DNA of 43,824 nt from Neisseria sp. GTDB lineage: Bacteria > Pseudomonadota > Gammaproteobacteria > Burkholderiales > Neisseriaceae. The notes under the pieces were generated by a model. The model was not told the DNA's origin, did no database searches, and saw nothing but the letters and a program-made list of their open reading frames with translations. The position numbers were made by a program, and so were the translations under genes. The DNA is taken from contig JAUNTY010000020.1 in assembly GCA_030538415.1 (NCBI GenBank), positions 1 to 43,824 on the forward strand, in the 5' to 3' direction. Shown here piece by piece: positions 25,486 through 35,324 of this stretch (position 1 is its first letter; each line of letters opens with the position of its first letter).

Positions 25486-25695
25486 TATAGTCGAAGAAAT
25501 TAGATTCTGCTACGGCGTTGTCTCACCTTGTCGTACTATAGTGGAAAAACTTACTTTAATACAAGGCAGCAAGCCGCAGACAGTACAAGTAGTACGGCTA
25601 GGCGCAGTAACGCAGTAGTAGAGTAAGTTTTTTCACTATATCTGTACTGTCTGCGGCTCGACGCCTTGTATCAGAATCTAATTTCTCCGACTATA
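25486..25695. repeat. Correia-type element (subfamily A, outer) interrupted by a second Correia element
   Basis: Ends TATAGTCGAAGAAATTAG and CTAATTTCTCCGACTATA. The outer copy is split in its core at GTAC/TA/TCTGTACTG by the element at 25537-25640. Removing the inner element and one TA leaves a normal core (CTTGTCGTACTATCTGTACT), as in the uninterrupted copy at 26541. Confidence 0.9.
25537..25640. repeat. Correia-type element (subfamily B), nested in subfamily A copy
   Basis: 104 bp. Ends TATAGTGGAAAAACTTAC and GTAAGTTTTTTCACTATA are closer to the classical Neisseria TATAGTGGATTAA end than those of subfamily A. The target TA is duplicated. Confidence 0.9.
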
Positions 25696-29071: not shown

Positions 29072-29335
29072 TTAGGAGCTTATTTTCAATTCACTAAACA
29101 GCTGATTCAGCACTTCTACCGCATCCCATTCCAAAGCGCGGCAATAGCTGATGAATTCAAACACATCCAGCCGCCAGTCTCCCGTTTCTACCTTGCCGAC
29201 AAACGAATGCAATACGCCCAACCGCTCCGCCAGCGCACGCTGAGACAAACCCAGCGCCAACCTGCGCTGAGTAAATAAATGTCGCAAAAAAAGATGCTCG
29301 CTCGAGTGAACGGATAAACGCAGGTTCTTTTTCAT
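29072..29335 (-). CDS. XRE-family HTH regulator, divergent from dndC
   Basis: 87 residues from MKKNLRLSVHSSEHLFLRHL. A Cro/CI-type helix-turn-helix covers about residues 20-70: FTQRRLALGLSQRALAERLG, then FVGKVETGDWRLDVFEFI. There is no second domain, so it is a compact repressor. The start lies 50 bp from the dndC start, and a perfect palindrome (29335-29355) fills much of that gap and covers the regulator's own ribosome binding site. I infer autoregulation and control of the dnd operon. It is not a homologue I can name with confidence among known dnd regulators. Confidence 0.85.
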   Translation of the reverse strand: MKKNLRLSVHSSEHLFLRHLFTQRRLALGLSQRALAERLGVLHSFVGKVETGDWRLDVFEFISYCRALEWDAVEVLNQLFSELKISS

Positions 29336-29385: not shown

Positions 29386-30504
29386 ATGACCGCCATTCCT
29401 ATCCATGCTGTTGACGTATTCGACGACATCCGTGAAACCCTTGCAGCCGAATACCTTAATCAAAGCCAGTCTTACCCGTGGATTGTGACTTTTTCAGGCG
29501 GAAAAGACAGTACATTGGTCGCGCATTTGGTGTTTGAAGTGTTGGCAGAATTACCGCCTTCTCTGCGAAAGCGGCAGGTGTTTTTTGTTTCCAACGATAC
29601 TTTGGTTGAAAGCCCGCTGGTGGTTGCCCATATGCGCAGCGCCTTAGAGAAAATCCTCCACGCCGCCGCAATCTACAAACTGCCGGTATCAGGGCAGGTG
29701 ACCACGCCCGATTTAAAAGAGACCTTTTGGACTTTATTGATTGGTAAAGGCTATCCCTCGCCCAACCGCAATATGCGCTGGTGTACCGACCGCCTGAAAA
29801 TCCAACCGACCAGCAAATTCATTCTCGACAAAGCCGCGGAAAACGGTGCGGCAATCATCATTTTGGGCGTGCGTAAAGACGAATCCGCCACCCGCAAAGC
29901 CAGCATTGAAAGCCATCAAAATCTTCATAATTCCAACCTCACCCCGCACGGCAGTCTGCCGAACGCGTTGGTGTTTCGGCCGATTGTCGATTTAAGTACC
30001 GATGACGTATGGGAATTTCTCGCCTCGCACAACCCGCCGTGGGGTGGTACGCACGATGGTCTGATCAAACTCTACCGCGAAGCAGCGGGCGGTGAATGTC
30101 CGATTGTCTTGTCGCAGGACGAAGCCCCGGGCTGCGGCACCAATTCCAGCCGCTTCGGCTGCTGGACATGTACCGTCGTCAATAAAGACAAGAGCTTGCA
30201 AGGCTTTGTCGATGTCGGCAAAACCGAATTCCAGCCCTTAATCGAATTTCGCGATTGGTTGGTGGACATCAGGAACCGACCCGAATACAGACAGGTGGAG
30301 CGGCGTAATGGCACAGTCACCATCAAGCAGGGCAAACATATTCCCGGCCCGTTTACCGTTGAAGCACGGCAGATGATACTGGCGCGTCTAATCGATGTTC
30401 AGACGGCCTACGGCAGCGAATTAATCAGTCAGGAAGAAATCGAATTAATCAAACAAATTTGGGCACAAGACCTAATCCAAACCTATACAAGGAAAAACGC
30501 ATGA
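29386..30504 (+). CDS. dndC: DNA phosphorothioation sulfurtransferase DndC
   Basis: 372 residues from MTAIPIHAVDVFDDIRETLA; a TTG at 29374 would add four residues. The ATP pyrophosphatase motif is SGGKDSTLVAHLVFE (about 37). Further on, RNMRWCTDRLKIQPT and the cysteine cluster around GCGTNSSRFGCWTCTVVNKD, with QGFVDVG after it, are diagnostic of DndC, where the cysteines bind a 4Fe-4S cluster. DndC activates the DNA phosphate so that sulfur can be inserted. At 372 residues it is shorter than many DndC proteins. The stop TGA overlaps the ATG of the next small gene (30501-30504), so translation was coupled. It carries one DUS (30398-30409). Confidence 0.93.
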   Translation: MTAIPIHAVDVFDDIRETLAAEYLNQSQSYPWIVTFSGGKDSTLVAHLVFEVLAELPPSLRKRQVFFVSNDTLVESPLVVAHMRSALEKILHAAAIYKLPVSGQVTTPDLKETFWTLLIGKGYPSPNRNMRWCTDRLKIQPTSKFILDKAAENGAAIIILGVRKDESATRKASIESHQNLHNSNLTPHGSLPNALVFRPIVDLSTDDVWEFLASHNPPWGGTHDGLIKLYREAAGGECPIVLSQDEAPGCGTNSSRFGCWTCTVVNKDKSLQGFVDVGKTEFQPLIEFRDWLVDIRNRPEYRQVERRNGTVTIKQGKHIPGPFTVEARQMILARLIDVQTAYGSELISQEEIELIKQIWAQDLIQTYTRKNA

Positions 30505-30825
30505 ATACGGAAATATAGTCGGAGAAATTAGTTTCTGCTACGGCGTTGGCTCGCCTTGCCGTACTATCTGTACTGTCTGCGGCTCGCCGCCTTGTATCAG
30601 AATCTAATTTCTCCGACTATACAAGAACAAGTCGGTGATTTACTGTTGTGGAGCGATCCGGAAGCCAAGAAACTGATGGAAGAGATTGCTGCTGCACATA
30701 ATGTGGAAATTGAAGCGTTAGCAGAGTTGGTTGCATGGGAGCGGGAACAACAGGAACGTATACGTCGTCGCGGGATGACCGATGCTTTTGATGGAATTTT
30801 TGATAACAAAAAATACTGGAAATAA
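30501..30825 (+). pseudogene. Small dnd-associated gene interrupted by a Correia element
   Basis: The ATG overlaps the dndC stop (ATGA). It reads M-N-T-E-I and then hits TAG at the first bases of the Correia element (30514-30621). After the element the frame resumes as QEQVGDLLLWSDPEAKKLM and ends with FDGIFDNKKYWK, two bases before dndD (TAA-G-ATG). If the element is removed with one TA, the codons GAA-ATA-CAA-GAA join exactly and give a 72-residue, highly charged, helical protein. I recall a small uncharacterised protein family at this place in dnd operons and this fits, but I could not check it. A TTG at 30556 inside the element is in the right frame and might give a variant protein with a new N-terminus. 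Confidence 0.82.
30514..30621. repeat. Correia-type element, 108-bp copy (subfamily A), inserted in the dnd operon
   Basis: Ends TATAGTCGGAGAAATTAG and CTAATTTCTCCGACTATA, with core GGCTCGCCTTGCCGTACTAT and CTGTACTGTCTGCGGCTCGC. The flanking TA is the duplicated target. It splits the small gene after codon five. Confidence 0.93.
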
Positions 30826-30826
30826 G

Positions 30827-32878
30827 ATGTGGATTCATTCAATCAAATTGCGGAATTTCAAGTCTTACGACAATGCGGCATTCAGCTTTCCCAAGCCCAA
30901 GGGTGGGCGCAATATTGTGTTAATCGGTGCGGAAAACGGCCACGGTAAAACCACGCTGCTGGAAGCGGTTTATCTGTGTTTGTATGACAAAGATGCCATC
31001 AGCCATTTGCAGCGCGCGGGGTTGAATACACAGAAAAACACTTACCCCGAGTTTTTAAAATCGGCACTGTTCCATGAGGCAGAAACCAGATACGGTCAAT
31101 ACGCCATGAGTTTGGAAATCGAAATCCGCCAAAGCTATCGCGAAGCCGTGCACGGCTTGCGCATCCGGCGGAATTGGCATTTCAGCAGCGATAGAAATCT
31201 GATTGCAGGCGAACACGGCAGCTCGGTAACGGCGGAAATCCTGAAAAACGAACAATACGAATTTATTGATGAAAAAGACCTCGATAAATACACCAATGTT
31301 TTTGCCCTGCCGTTTGATTACGCACCATTTTTCTTCTTTGACGGCGAAAAAATCGTTCAGACGGCACAGCAAAGCGGTACGGGTTTGTGGCTGAATACGG
31401 CGCTGAAAGGCTTGTTGGGTGTCACCCTTTTGGAAAAACTAAGGGTTAGTTTGAAAGACTATCGCAGTAAGTGCATTTCCGAAGGTGCGACTGAAAAAAT
31501 GCTGGATGATTTGCGCAAAGCGGAGAGCAATCTGCAATCGGCAGAAGCGACTTTGCACGTGTTTCGCGAAGAGTTGACAGAAACGCAGGAAAAATGGCAG
31601 CAGGCGGCGGAAGCACGCGAATATCTGACGCAACAGTTGGGTGGCGGCAACGATATACGGACTTCAGACGATTTGCTGCGCCAGCGTGAAAAGCTGGAAA
31701 AAGAAATGGCAGAGTTTGAAGCCAAAGCCAAAGCTGCTGTTAAAGCCATGCCGCTGGCGTTTCTTCCTCGGGAAAGTCTGAATGCTTTGCGGCAGCAGTT
31801 GGAAAAAGAAAAAAACCGTTTGAACCACGAAGCGGGAAAAAATCAAATTGCCGAGAAAGTAGATGATTTTTGGGATGCTTTTGTTGCCAGTGATAAGGTT
31901 AATCAGGCATTGGGTGCAATGGCTAATATGATTTTAAGCCAGCCTTTGATGAAAGAGGCTGTAAAAGACTGTTGGGAGGATTTATTTTATCCGTTGCCGT
32001 CCGAGTGTGCAGATCAAATCGAACACAATTATCTGTCGGTCAATGCCCATGCGGAAATTCAAAACGAAATCGGCCGCTTGGAGGGGATGCCTCAGGAACA
32101 AATCGGTACGTTATTGGCGGAAAATGAGAAGCGGGAGGCCGAACGCAAGGCAATTTCGGCAGAAATCGAATTGCTGAGGGGAACCAATAAAGATGAATTG
32201 GTCGAGCAACTGAGAAACGTTACCGAGGAAACCGAAAAACTCAAAGAACGTATAGGCCATCTGAACAGTAACGTCATCCGCCAAGATAAGGATTTTCAGC
32301 GTTGGCAGAAAGAAGTTAAAGATTTGCAGGACAGAATCAGCGATGGCGATCCAAAGCTGAGAAAGTCGCGCAGAGCGGGTGAAGTAGATAAGGTGATTGT
32401 CCGGTTGACAGAAGAATTGCTGAAAAAGAAAGTGAAAGAAGTCGGTGAAGCGGCGACACGGATCAACCGTGCGATTGCCCATGACGAACGGATCGACAAA
32501 ATCCGCGTAGAAAGCGACGGACGCATGGGCATCTTCGGTAGAGACGGTTATGAATCACGGGTGGATTTGTCGGCCGGGCAGATGCAGATTCTGATTATGG
32601 CGCTGGTGTCGGCATTGGCAGAAGTCACCCGCTATCATGCGCCGTTTATCATTGATACGCCGCTGGCGCGTTTGGATGAAGGCCATCGGGAAGGGTTGTT
32701 CAAGCATTGGTGCAATTTGGAGCAACAGGTGCTTTTATTGTCGCAAGATACGGAAATCACAGCAGAAGTGTATCATCGCTTGTCGCCGCATATCAGCCGT
32801 ACTTATTTGGTGAAAGCGGAATCTTTAGACAGCGCGGGTGCACGTTCGCGAGTTGCTGCCGATGTTTATTTTGAATAA
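30827..32878 (+). CDS. dndD: DNA phosphorothioation ATPase DndD (SMC/Rad50-like)
   Basis: 683 residues from MWIHSIKLRNFKSYDNAAFS. Walker A is GAENGHGKTTLLEAVYLCL (about 34). A long coiled coil spans about 220-540 (for example KLEKEMAEFEAKAKAAVKAM). The ABC signature is DLSAGQMQILIMALVSAL (about 580), Walker B is FIIDTPLARLDEGHREGL, and the switch region LLSQDTEI follows. This is the DndD organisation, an SMC-like ATPase thought to act on DNA structure during sulfur incorporation. The ATG lies one base after the small gene stop. Base composition is more AT-rich than the flanking housekeeping genes. A stretch FDYAPFFFFDGEKIVQTAQQ follows the usual DndD pattern. Confidence 0.9.
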   Translation: MWIHSIKLRNFKSYDNAAFSFPKPKGGRNIVLIGAENGHGKTTLLEAVYLCLYDKDAISHLQRAGLNTQKNTYPEFLKSALFHEAETRYGQYAMSLEIEIRQSYREAVHGLRIRRNWHFSSDRNLIAGEHGSSVTAEILKNEQYEFIDEKDLDKYTNVFALPFDYAPFFFFDGEKIVQTAQQSGTGLWLNTALKGLLGVTLLEKLRVSLKDYRSKCISEGATEKMLDDLRKAESNLQSAEATLHVFREELTETQEKWQQAAEAREYLTQQLGGGNDIRTSDDLLRQREKLEKEMAEFEAKAKAAVKAMPLAFLPRESLNALRQQLEKEKNRLNHEAGKNQIAEKVDDFWDAFVASDKVNQALGAMANMILSQPLMKEAVKDCWEDLFYPLPSECADQIEHNYLSVNAHAEIQNEIGRLEGMPQEQIGTLLAENEKREAERKAISAEIELLRGTNKDELVEQLRNVTEETEKLKERIGHLNSNVIRQDKDFQRWQKEVKDLQDRISDGDPKLRKSRRAGEVDKVIVRLTEELLKKKVKEVGEAATRINRAIAHDERIDKIRVESDGRMGIFGRDGYESRVDLSAGQMQILIMALVSALAEVTRYHAPFIIDTPLARLDEGHREGLFKHWCNLEQQVLLLSQDTEITAEVYHRLSPHISRTYLVKAESLDSAGARSRVAADVYFE

Positions 32879-32889
32879 AGGGGAGAAAT

Positions 32890-34458
32890 ATGTACCAATT
32901 GGAACATAACGCAGCGTGGGATACCGATTATTTCCATACGCTGATGAGCGAGAAACGGATTATTTCCAGCAAAGAAGCCAAAGACATTAGAGATAAATTG
33001 ATGGATGCGGGCGCATTGCCGCCGTTGGACAGTAATTTTGACTGGGCAATGCTGTGTATCGGCTATTGTTTTGCCAAAGGATTCACTGAATCGGCAAACA
33101 GATTGCTTGCCGCGCCGAATGCCAAAGGAACGGAAATTCCATCGTTTCAAACCTGTTTTCAGGATTACTCGCGTCTGTGGCTGGTGTTGTTGAGCGAAAC
33201 GCTGTTCCACATCAATCCCGGTAAAGCCGTAAGCAAAGACGATTTGTACACCTTAATACAATCCCTTTGGCACACGGGTGCGGTGGAATTAGAACAATTC
33301 TGGGAAGGCTGTAAACGATTCAAGCCTGATTCCGATTTGGAAGCGCGGCAGGCATTTTTGAACGAACTGACTGATTTGGCGGTTAAAAATTCCGAAAATC
33401 GCCAAGTGGGAAATATTGAAGACAGCAATGCTCAATCTCTTGAGTACCCACCTGAAGAAATGGGTACTCGCTTAACAGAAGCATTGAAAAATCTGCATAT
33501 GGGTGCAGTGGAATTGAAATTTCTGACATCAGGTATTCGCTATGACTTTTACCGTGTCCGCTTTGCCAATTATCAAGAATGGGGAAAATTTCATACACAG
33601 CTTTGCTCTGCCTTGGGTTTTGACAGTAACCGGATTATAGCGGAGCGGTGCACTAAAAATAATATTGCTCATGCTTATGATGTGAAAATATTGCGTGATG
33701 AAAAAACATGGAAGCCACTGAGCAAGCAGATTTTTCAAACGGCATTATCTACTTATCAGGGTGATATGCTGTTGCCATTGTGCGTAGGTTCTGATGAGGT
33801 GGGGAAACCTGTGTTTGAAGATTTGGTTGAAGCACGGCATATTTTAGTAGGTGGTACGACTGGTGCGGGTAAATCAGTGATGGTCAGAACTCTGTTGCAC
33901 AGCTTATTTGAGCTGGTGGGTAACGATGAATTGGAAGTTGCTGTTTTAGACCCGGCCAATGACTATGCGGTATTCAAAGACAAATCTAATCTTTGGGGTA
34001 ATTGTATTTATGGTAAGCGTGATGAAATGCGGGGGCTGCTGGAAGAGTTTGTTGCCGAAATGGATAAGCGTTTGGAATTGCTGAAAGTGCATGATGTTGC
34101 TAATGTTTATGAGCTGAAATCGACCTTACGCCCGCAATCGCTGGTAATTATGGTGGAAGAGTTAGCAGCCTTGTTGGATAACGATAAAGAAACTGAAAGG
34201 CCGTTGGTTCAGCTTTTACAGGAAGGGCGGAAGACCGGTATTCATCTGATTATGGCAACACAAGAGCCGGACTCTAAAACTTTCTCAGCCCGTTTGAGGG
34301 CAAATATTCCGAGTCGGATTGCTATGCGCGTCAGCAAGCCCGGTTCTTCTGAAATGATTCTAGGTGAGTTAGGTGCGGAAAAATTAGTAGGAAAAGGTGA
34401 TCATTTGGTTCGCTGGAATAATGGCAAAGCGCAATTTTTACATGGTTATAATGTGTAG
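32890..34458 (+). CDS. DndE-like protein fused to an FtsK/SpoIIIE-type ATPase
   Basis: 522 residues; GGGGAG 5 nt before the ATG. Residues 1-150 look DndE-like: SSKEAKDIRDKLMDAGALPP, then FDWAMLCIGYCFAKGF, resembling the small DndE that binds nicked DNA. A middle part (160-290) has LHMGAVELKFLTSGIRYDFY. The C-terminal 220 residues form an FtsK/SpoIIIE ATPase: Walker A GGTTGAGKSVMVRTLLHSLF (about 321), Walker B (SLVIMVEELAALLD), then MATQEPDSKTFSARLRANIP and GELGAEKLVGKGDHLV. The FtsK part is certain; the DndE assignment of the N-terminus is pattern-based. The protein may combine DNA binding with DNA translocation. It is the last gene of the operon; a repeat end abuts its stop. Confidence 0.8.
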   Translation: MYQLEHNAAWDTDYFHTLMSEKRIISSKEAKDIRDKLMDAGALPPLDSNFDWAMLCIGYCFAKGFTESANRLLAAPNAKGTEIPSFQTCFQDYSRLWLVLLSETLFHINPGKAVSKDDLYTLIQSLWHTGAVELEQFWEGCKRFKPDSDLEARQAFLNELTDLAVKNSENRQVGNIEDSNAQSLEYPPEEMGTRLTEALKNLHMGAVELKFLTSGIRYDFYRVRFANYQEWGKFHTQLCSALGFDSNRIIAERCTKNNIAHAYDVKILRDEKTWKPLSKQIFQTALSTYQGDMLLPLCVGSDEVGKPVFEDLVEARHILVGGTTGAGKSVMVRTLLHSLFELVGNDELEVAVLDPANDYAVFKDKSNLWGNCIYGKRDEMRGLLEEFVAEMDKRLELLKVHDVANVYELKSTLRPQSLVIMVEELAALLDNDKETERPLVQLLQEGRKTGIHLIMATQEPDSKTFSARLRANIPSRIAMRVSKPGSSEMILGELGAEKLVGKGDHLVRWNNGKAQFLHGYNV

Positions 34459-34760: not shown

Positions 34761-35324
34761 CTAGTCTTGCCAATCAATTTGCTCAATACGCATCATGGTG
34801 CTGCCGCGCAGCCAATATTTGTATGCAGGCTCGGATTGGTCATCATAGAGTGACAGGATGAGGTCTTTGAAGCTATCGGCCACAAACACGAGGTCTTTTT
34901 CATGGTTGATGTTGCTGCCCCAATCAAGCGAACTGTGATACCACAAAAACACCTTGCCCCAATTGTCATCGCGCACACCCATCAAAAGATGGATGGGAGA
35001 GACGGCATCGGCGATGATGAGATAACCTTCGGGGTAGCCGCTGCGGTAATATTGTTCATCCACCAACATCATAACGTGCGGCCACGTATACAATTCGGTG
35101 AGTGCCTGCGGGTTTTCGTCTAAAAACGCCGGCCAAGGGACAGTGGAAACGTCAAAGCAGTTGGGAAACGGAAAGCCGCCGGTGTATGTCAGGATGAAGT
35201 AGCGGTAATCATCGGGCAGCTTCCTTTGCCGTTTGGTTTCCCATGCCGAGAGGGATGGCAGAATATCGGCAGCCGTAAGGTTTGCGTTTTCTCTTCTCTG
35301 GTATATTCGGATATCGGTTTTCAT
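34761..35324 (-). CDS. SMI1/KNR4 (SUKH) family protein
   Basis: 187 residues from MKTDIRIYQRRENANLTAAD. The SUKH pattern is ETKRQRKLPDDYRYFILTYTGGFPFPN (Leu-Pro-x-Asp-Tyr and the Gly-Gly strand turn), then YLIIADAVSPIHLLMGVRDD and GKVFLWYHSSLDW, and a C-terminal acidic helix (SFKDLILSLYDD). SUKH proteins often act as immunity proteins against contact-dependent or polymorphic toxins. No toxin gene is seen in the window, so it may be an orphan immunity gene. It reads toward the dnd operon and shares no promoter with it. Confidence 0.78.
   Translation of the reverse strand: MKTDIRIYQRRENANLTAADILPSLSAWETKRQRKLPDDYRYFILTYTGGFPFPNCFDVSTVPWPAFLDENPQALTELYTWPHVMMLVDEQYYRSGYPEGYLIIADAVSPIHLLMGVRDDNWGKVFLWYHSSLDWGSNINHEKDLVFVADSFKDLILSLYDDQSEPAYKYWLRGSTMMRIEQIDWQD

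Follow-up and report, generated by a model that had tools for sequence, protein, structure and literature searches.

For the contact between the sulfurtransferase DndC and the ATPase DndD of DNA phosphorothioation systems, the portion of PMC12193691 consulted for Escherichia coli B7A describes a predicted complex in which residues 433 to 482 of DndC lie against the globular domain of DndD. The same portion reports that a DndC L458D/E462A/R471A mutant loses DndD in a pull-down, and a helix in the last ~60 residues of DndC is said there to contact the DndD coiled coil. The interface rests on complex prediction and mutant data rather than on a solved structure. A fusion of DndE to FtsK has already been named (PMC10853773, sections consulted), and disruption of genes by Correia elements is likewise on record (PMC2649163, sections consulted). 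Pfam holds a family, PF20306 (Sp-DndD), described as 'Small protein found in certain Dnd DNA modification systems', with no function given.

Here we describe a dnd operon of Neisseria sp. that contains a gene of this small family between dndC and dndD, split by a miniature element. The operon lies in a stretch of 43,824 nucleotides, hereafter the window (contig JAUNTY010000020.1 of assembly GCA_030538415.1, G000; 2.84 Mb in 106 contigs). A match to the NCBIfam model of neisserial histidinol-phosphatase (408.4 bits, cut-off 400) and the Correia-type repeats agree with this genus. From its sequence, the DNA-marking system of this strain is probably crippled.

The dnd operon and the interrupted small gene

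The features of the operon on which the following sections draw are listed here.

29072..29335, minus strand: HTH (Xre-type) regulator, divergent from dndC (Pfam HTH_31/HTH_3)
29386..30504, plus strand: dndC, short form, 372 aa from ATG, catalytic core only (TIGR03183, PAPS_reduct)
30501..30518, plus strand: stub formed by the first five codons of the small gene, followed by a TAG made by the element (sequence; intact counterpart in G046)
30514..30621, no strand assigned: Correia-type miniature element, 108 bp, with non-canonical ends and a duplicated TA (ends, copies, core)
30556..30558, plus strand: in-frame TTG inside the element and its hairpin, candidate new start (SD pairing −3.1 kcal/mol)
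30619..30825, plus strand: remainder of the small gene, 68 codons plus stop, PF20306 Sp-DndD (Pfam; hhalign to DndC tails)
30646..30648, plus strand: in-frame TTG beyond the element, candidate restart that would spare the whole PF20306 domain (SD pairing −8.5 kcal/mol)
30827..32878, plus strand: dndD, 683 aa, ABC ATPase, open (TIGR03185, PADLOC)
32890..34458, plus strand: dndE-FtsK/HerA fusion, 522 aa, open (FtsK_SpoIIIE; N-terminal part resembling DndE)

The short DndC matched TIGR03183 above the cut-off (375.4 bits, profile positions 8 to 364 of 447) and is without the usual C-terminal tail, while DndD scored 239.7 bits against TIGR03185, slightly below the cut-off of 245.85. No operon hit was to the NCBIfam DndE model. 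The absence of DndE suspected from this was rejected, as the N-terminal part of the FtsK fusion aligned with DndE at an hhalign probability of 98.4, where 50 shuffles gave at most 1.5. A cysteine desulfurase is present elsewhere in the genome (IscS, over cut-off). With homologues of DndC, DndD, and DndE together in one operon, the Dnd system is, as judged by these matches, otherwise complete (DndC, DndD, the DndE part, and IscS). The HTH regulator adjoins dndC in 13 of the 16 relatives' stretches. Among the DndFGH families, TIGR03238 had no match in this genome, weak sub-cut-off matches in 9 of 17 genomes, and none above the cut-off in any of the 17; TIGR03237 had none in the 17 genomes. The control genomes gave no match to either family, so these negatives do not establish absence. 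If a DndFGH partner is absent, loss of the mark should not endanger the cell.

Two further observations concern the surroundings. The dndE-FtsK product is 58% identical to that of the closest relative, G046, compared with 94% for dndC and 87% for dndD, which suggests exchange or fast change of this putative target-recognition subunit. Downstream of the operon, on the opposite strand, lies a gene of the SUKH/SMI1-KNR4 family (34761-35324), and beyond it an ORF whose product carries the N-terminal domain of shikimate dehydrogenase.

A preliminary description of this DNA, made from its letters alone, had proposed that the small gene begins in an ATGA overlap with dndC, stops in the first bases of an element, and resumes in another frame behind it. 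Each of these positions was confirmed: the ATG (30501-30503) overlaps the dndC stop TGA (30502-30504), the premature TAG is at 30516-30518, and the frame resumes at 30619-30825, runs without an internal stop to a TAA, and is separated by one base from the ATG of dndD at 30827. The TTG at 30556 is in frame with the remainder, as had also been stated. The net insertion is 106 bp, not a multiple of three, with a duplicated TA. An intact reading frame with its own start is absent from the small gene of the window, as the remainder has no ATG ahead of the PF20306 domain.

A total of 83 genomes of the family Neisseriaceae were searched; dndC was found in 17 and the small gene in 16, the window genome being included in both counts. 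In the genome missed at first, G059, a profile search found a divergent small ORF at this position (E 2.4e-10). In all 16 other dnd-bearing genomes, dndC is thus followed by a small ORF that stands alone and is uninterrupted; the gene is whole where the window has it broken, and the proposal that a gene of a real dnd operon was interrupted is supported. None of the related operons lacks the gene, and none of the 16 relatives' proteins starts with residues derived from the element; the opposite outcomes would have spoken against that proposal. The possibility that the small gene is a chance ORF was rejected on its conservation in all 16. An ATG stands near the dndC stop in 15 of them (at the offset of the window in nine, with a longer overlap in four, and at or after the stop in two); the small ORF of G016 has no ATG ahead of the domain, and its dndC, dndD, and dndE-FtsK are all broken.

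The intact site was read directly in G046, with no joining of the window's flanks. Its gene of 72 uninterrupted codons has the same ATGA overlap and agrees with both window flanks across the insertion point, in accord with the earlier claim that removal of the element and one TA restores a frame of 72 residues. The flanks align to one unbroken stretch of G046 (86% over 402 bp and 82% over 401 bp), and a chimeric assembly was rejected on this ground. With at least 40 near-identical copies scored in an assembly of 106 contigs, an assembler could have placed a repeat between these flanks; both nevertheless belong to one operon that is uninterrupted in G046, and the TA duplication and complete ends fit a real insertion, which leaves such an artefact very improbable indeed. 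The small gene has a dN/dS of 0.074 relative to G046, equal to that of dndD; this value mostly predates the insertion, is uninformative as to its age, and cannot reveal a loss of the gene.

Other operons of the family are also broken: dndC, dndD, and ftsK in G016 (L139), ftsK in G025 (L131), dndD in G059 (L137), and dndC, whose start is missing, in G042 (L138). Frames in these four genomes show no inserts of the kind found in the window.

The inserted element

The element is 108 bp long, within the 104-108 or 153-157 bp by which Correia elements are defined, and ends in perfect inverted repeats of 18 bp; its arms match at 32 of 54 positions. Its hairpin is predicted at −54.2 kcal/mol, and no Rfam family was found at the element at gathering score. 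At least 40 near-full-length copies occur in the genome, this one included (all 40 scored, out of 536 first-look candidates), and among these the closest other copy is 99% identical. The two exact 16-bp ends are found at 10 places in this genome, including this one, and in none of the 16 other dnd-bearing genomes. The insertion had been called recent, and this stands only in a relative sense, on exact ends confined to this genome of the 17 and on the 99% identical copy.

Some match to the element was found in 40 of the 46 genomes of the genus, this one included. Similar ends also occur outside this genome and are not confined to it, since matches extend over the full length in three others: a copy in G016 (91% over positions 1-107), several in G018 (82-89% over about 1-108), and one in G019 (81% over 1-108). 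Many of the genus matches listed cover the core only (about positions 26-82, 95-98% identity). Eight such places were read, and Correia-type ends were recognized by eye in four of them (L158, L161, L162, and L163); two in G026 have a related end, and two in G046 a quite different one.

Compared with the four Correia repeat variants printed in PMC5039591, the end of the element has 6 to 8 mismatches in its first 18 bases. A strict Correia element was rejected, as the ends differ from the 26-bp Correia repeat and only the core is common. The element had been described as a 108-bp Correia copy; the length is borne out and the core is shared, but the terminal repeats are not the published 26-bp repeat. 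By sequence comparison it is a Correia-type variant with its own ends.

Two observations on the element family were made in passing. Across the genus, a core of ~57 bp (positions 26-82; L156-L163) carries terminal inverted repeats that differ from genome to genome at the eight places read, with end types that comprise the Correia type, a G026 type, a G046 type, and that of this genome; the cores look as if they were paired with locally mobilisable ends. At 25486-25695 of the window, one Correia-type element is nested in another, the outer having ends like this genome's type and the inner starting TATAGTGGAAAAACTTAC.

Relation of the small protein to the DndC tail

The remainder of the small gene scored 52.3 bits against PF20306, over the gathering cut-off of 27.2 (E 5.9e-14, residues 15-61 of 68), and it stands in a Dnd operon, adjoining dndD. 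On a Burkholderia glumae plasmid, a gene between dndC and dndD bears the PGAP name 'DNA modification system-associated small protein', which likewise implies no function. The preliminary description had treated the protein as a component of the operon and missed what its sequence relationships suggest, namely, that it corresponds to the C-terminal domain of DndC.

DndC frames were compared at 80 loci, fetched with a DndC alignment among 246 relatives. Among the matches listed, the tail beyond the core measures 80 to 170 residues in 61 of 81 DndC frames; the remaining 20 frames stop at the core or are truncated. Ten long-tailed frames (eight from Bacillota and two from Arcicella), in which the query alignment had ended early, are not in the tail profile, and one of the 61, L056, was left out of the resulting 51 as its frame is doubtful, so that 50 tails were used. 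Behind short DndC frames, matches to the small-protein profile follow directly at L044-L052 and L054, the last of these weak (E 0.005). Eight of these ten split loci outside the family contributed to the profile, from which L048 and L054 were left out; G016 and G059 are absent from the alignment of small proteins.

Aligned profile to profile, 23 small proteins and the 50 tails gave an hhalign probability of 96.7 (E 3.6e-10), whereas 100 column shuffles gave at most 2.5. An earlier form of this test scored 83.7 with Neisseriaceae proteins only and 95.6 with split members from elsewhere. When the small profile is aligned with full-length fused DndC (513 columns), its hit occupies columns 422-470 (hhalign 95.3), and the short DndC covers columns 36-392, directly ahead of it. 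The Pfam Sp-DndD model matches 11 of 44 fused DndC proteins with E values of 0.05 or less (the lowest 3.5e-11), and L086 is over the Pfam cut-off at residues 402-448. With the Neisseriaceae-only profile, L086 alone fell below E 0.01 (1.6e-4), with the next seven in the range 0.04 to 0.5; evidence of this sequence-to-profile kind for a detached tail is weak.

Structure models were consulted as well, with a fold alignment of 44 of the 50 remaining fused DndC proteins. The predicted model of the fused L086 protein (pLDDT 85.5) ends in helices at 401-414, 418-430, 438-451, and 455-468. In the alignment, helix 14-26 of the window protein is the counterpart of the first, and its single long helix, 31-67, that of the second and third; the model of the window protein is of modest confidence (68 aa, pLDDT 77.7, pTM 0.49). 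A PDB fold search with the 68-residue model returned one meaningless match (E 9.7). With the sequence of one fused DndC as the query, no solved DndC structure was found at E up to 1e-5. In a DndC fold search, the best 50 of 928 matches were sulfurtransferases and other enzymes of PP-loop types. From the DndC lengths, profile matches, and structure models, we infer that in Sp-DndD the C-terminal domain of DndC exists as a protein of its own. Separately, the Thiocystis violacea locus L108 (6850-7263) has a single in-frame stop between the DndC core and its tail, possibly a first step of such a split or else a sequencing error.

On E. coli DndC, the small profile aligned with residues 437-484. 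The protein used was that of GCM74-1-1, with 544 aa compared with 540 in B7A and the same letters at positions 458, 462, and 471. The small protein of the window retains the equivalents of L458, E462, and R471. At the first position, leucine is found in all 23 small proteins and in 46 of the 50 tails; the second, with E in 12 and Q in 7 of the 23 small proteins, and the third, with R or K in 14 of 23, are not strictly conserved. At L060 the small gene lies directly ahead of dndD, away from dndC, which comes last, and weaker matches to the small profile (E 3e-4 and 1e-3) stand ahead of a second dndD at L055 and L063. Given the homology to the docking stretch of E. coli and a small gene that accompanies dndD where dndC lies apart, the small protein is probably an adaptor that docks the short DndC to DndD. 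As read by eye, the domain order of L060 (547-6495, Planctomycetota) is a desulfurase-like gene, the small gene, dndD in pieces, an ORF with an AAA+-like part, and a short dndC, so that the same parts recur there in another arrangement.

A different role would make the small protein a regulator or phage sensor like PbeB of CxC-ATPase systems, so that its loss unleashes the system. Such a role has been predicted for the small protein of related CxC/PbeABCD systems in the sections of PMC10853773 consulted, and the DndD of the window scores higher with the PADLOC PbeC model (379.1 bits) than with the DndD model (270.6 bits). PbeB is, however, described there as mostly disordered and fast-evolving, whereas the small protein of the window is predicted to be helical and is homologous to DndC tails. 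The operon moreover encodes DndC and a DndE fusion. The PbeA component of those systems is an HKD nuclease-helicase, and among the listed hits of the operon's genes no nuclease family appears; we regard a PbeB-like role as quite unlikely.

Predicted consequences of the insertion and comparison with known systems

Under the adaptor interpretation, the DndC polypeptide of this operon type would stop after its catalytic core, and the DndD-binding tail would be made separately, as an Sp-DndD of ~72 aa from an overlapping gene that bridges the sulfurtransferase DndC to the ATPase DndD. In the window, the Correia-type element has inserted at a TA in codon 5 of this presumed stand-alone domain and ends the protein after five codons; docking, and hence phosphorothioation, would be lost or strongly reduced. 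A stable hairpin between dndC and dndD may in addition lower DndD, and RNase III can cut such hairpins in published Correia elements (PMC2649163, sections consulted). That dndC, dndD, and dndE-FtsK all remain open is as expected of a young lesion. On the sequence evidence, we hold with reasonable, though incomplete, confidence that the element split a stand-alone, DndD-docking DndC tail and that docking and phosphorothioation are lost or strongly reduced.

Since the whole PF20306 domain (residues 15-61 of 68) lies beyond the element in a frame with no further stop, a leaky internal start could keep the domain. By a crude measure, SD pairing amounts to −5.2 kcal/mol at the native ATG, −1.5 at dndC, −3.3 at dndD, −3.1 at TTG 30556, and −8.5 at TTG 30646. 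Among the ATG, GTG, and TTG codons listed, the last, which is residue 10, shows the strongest SD-like pairing. The preliminary description had offered TTG 30556 as a new start; a protein made from it is possible, and its weak pairing is no ground for exclusion because the starts of dndC and dndD score no better. Initiation at TTG 30646, ATG 30676, or TTG 30556 would let docking survive and make the insertion nearly silent. These candidates, however, are located within or downstream of a hairpin of about −54 kcal/mol, no ATG precedes the domain, and ATG 30676 is within it. A start at TTG 30646 would partly lose a DLLLW motif that is invariant in 15 aligned small proteins, and the SD-like stretch ahead of it is altered in G046 and so is not a kept signal. 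Rescue by an internal start consequently appears possible but not likely.

The element might instead act chiefly on expression, through a promoter or RNase III processing site that shifts the dndC:dndD ratio, and loss of the small protein would be secondary. Both kinds of site are reported for Correia elements in the sections of PMC2649163 consulted, the hairpin is strong, and dndD, whose SD is weak (−3.3) and whose start lies one base after the small gene, may need translational coupling. The ends nonetheless differ from published Correia repeats, so that promoter and processing data may not transfer, and we rate a chiefly regulatory effect as rather unlikely. From these sequence comparisons, the insertion most likely deprives the system of its DndC-DndD adaptor, so that phosphorothioation would be weakened or abolished.

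A second interruption was found in Nitrosospira sp. Nsp2 (L048 7119-8522), where an insertion lies within the counterpart of the small gene and the flanking dndC and dndD are open. The insertion holds two adjoining ORFs of 276 and 87 aa on the opposite strand, which we take to be an IS3-type transposase pair. The first half of the small gene matched the small profile at E 2.6e-6; the second matched weakly (E 0.023) and was in addition recognized by eye. This insertion is independent of that in the window, and it is suggestive that a gene this small was hit twice, although the Nitrosospira case was found by looking there. One might imagine that the docking domain is a separable on/off adaptor, repeatedly hit by mobile elements while the catalytic dndC and dndD stay open, an idea we hold to be unlikely. 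If true, modification could be switched off and later restored, either when the element excises or through gene transfer, the host being naturally competent.

What would be new here is that Sp-DndD is equated with the tail by which DndC docks to DndD, together with its repeated natural interruption; the name Sp-DndD itself stands in Pfam. In the literature searched, mostly without subscription journals, we found no link of Sp-DndD to the DndC tail and no occurrence of 'Sp-DndD', 'PF20306', or the element end as a string; the PGAP name was absent from the matches listed. An unexplained family would thereby gain a testable function, that of a DndC tail holding DndC to DndD. Operons of the split type would offer a natural two-piece system in which to probe the DndC-DndD contact in DNA phosphorothioation, and the window a natural knock-out of a gene that an independent insertion has also struck in a distant bacterium.

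In comparison with known systems, the element resembles the Correia repeat enclosed elements (CREE, nemis) in its 108 bp, TA duplication, inverted ends, many copies, and ~57-bp core, and differs from them in its terminal repeats. The gene disruptions by CREE in N. gonorrhoeae (PMC2649163, sections consulted) are events of the same kind, with another host gene and another element subtype. The operon is like the Dnd systems with DndE-HerA/FtsK (clade 3 in the sections of PMC10853773 consulted) in that dndD stands beside a HerA/FtsK protein with a DndE-like N-terminal part, and unlike them in that DndC comes in two pieces; a fused DndC with an FtsK-like partner was found at L070 and L113. Relative to the C-terminal region of DndC in the E. 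coli dndBCDE system, the small protein is homologous over residues 437-484, including L458, E462, and R471. It stops shortly past that stretch and by length has no counterpart of the last ~60 residues of E. coli DndC, and the tail in the window, unlike that of E. coli, would be a separate protein from an overlapping gene.
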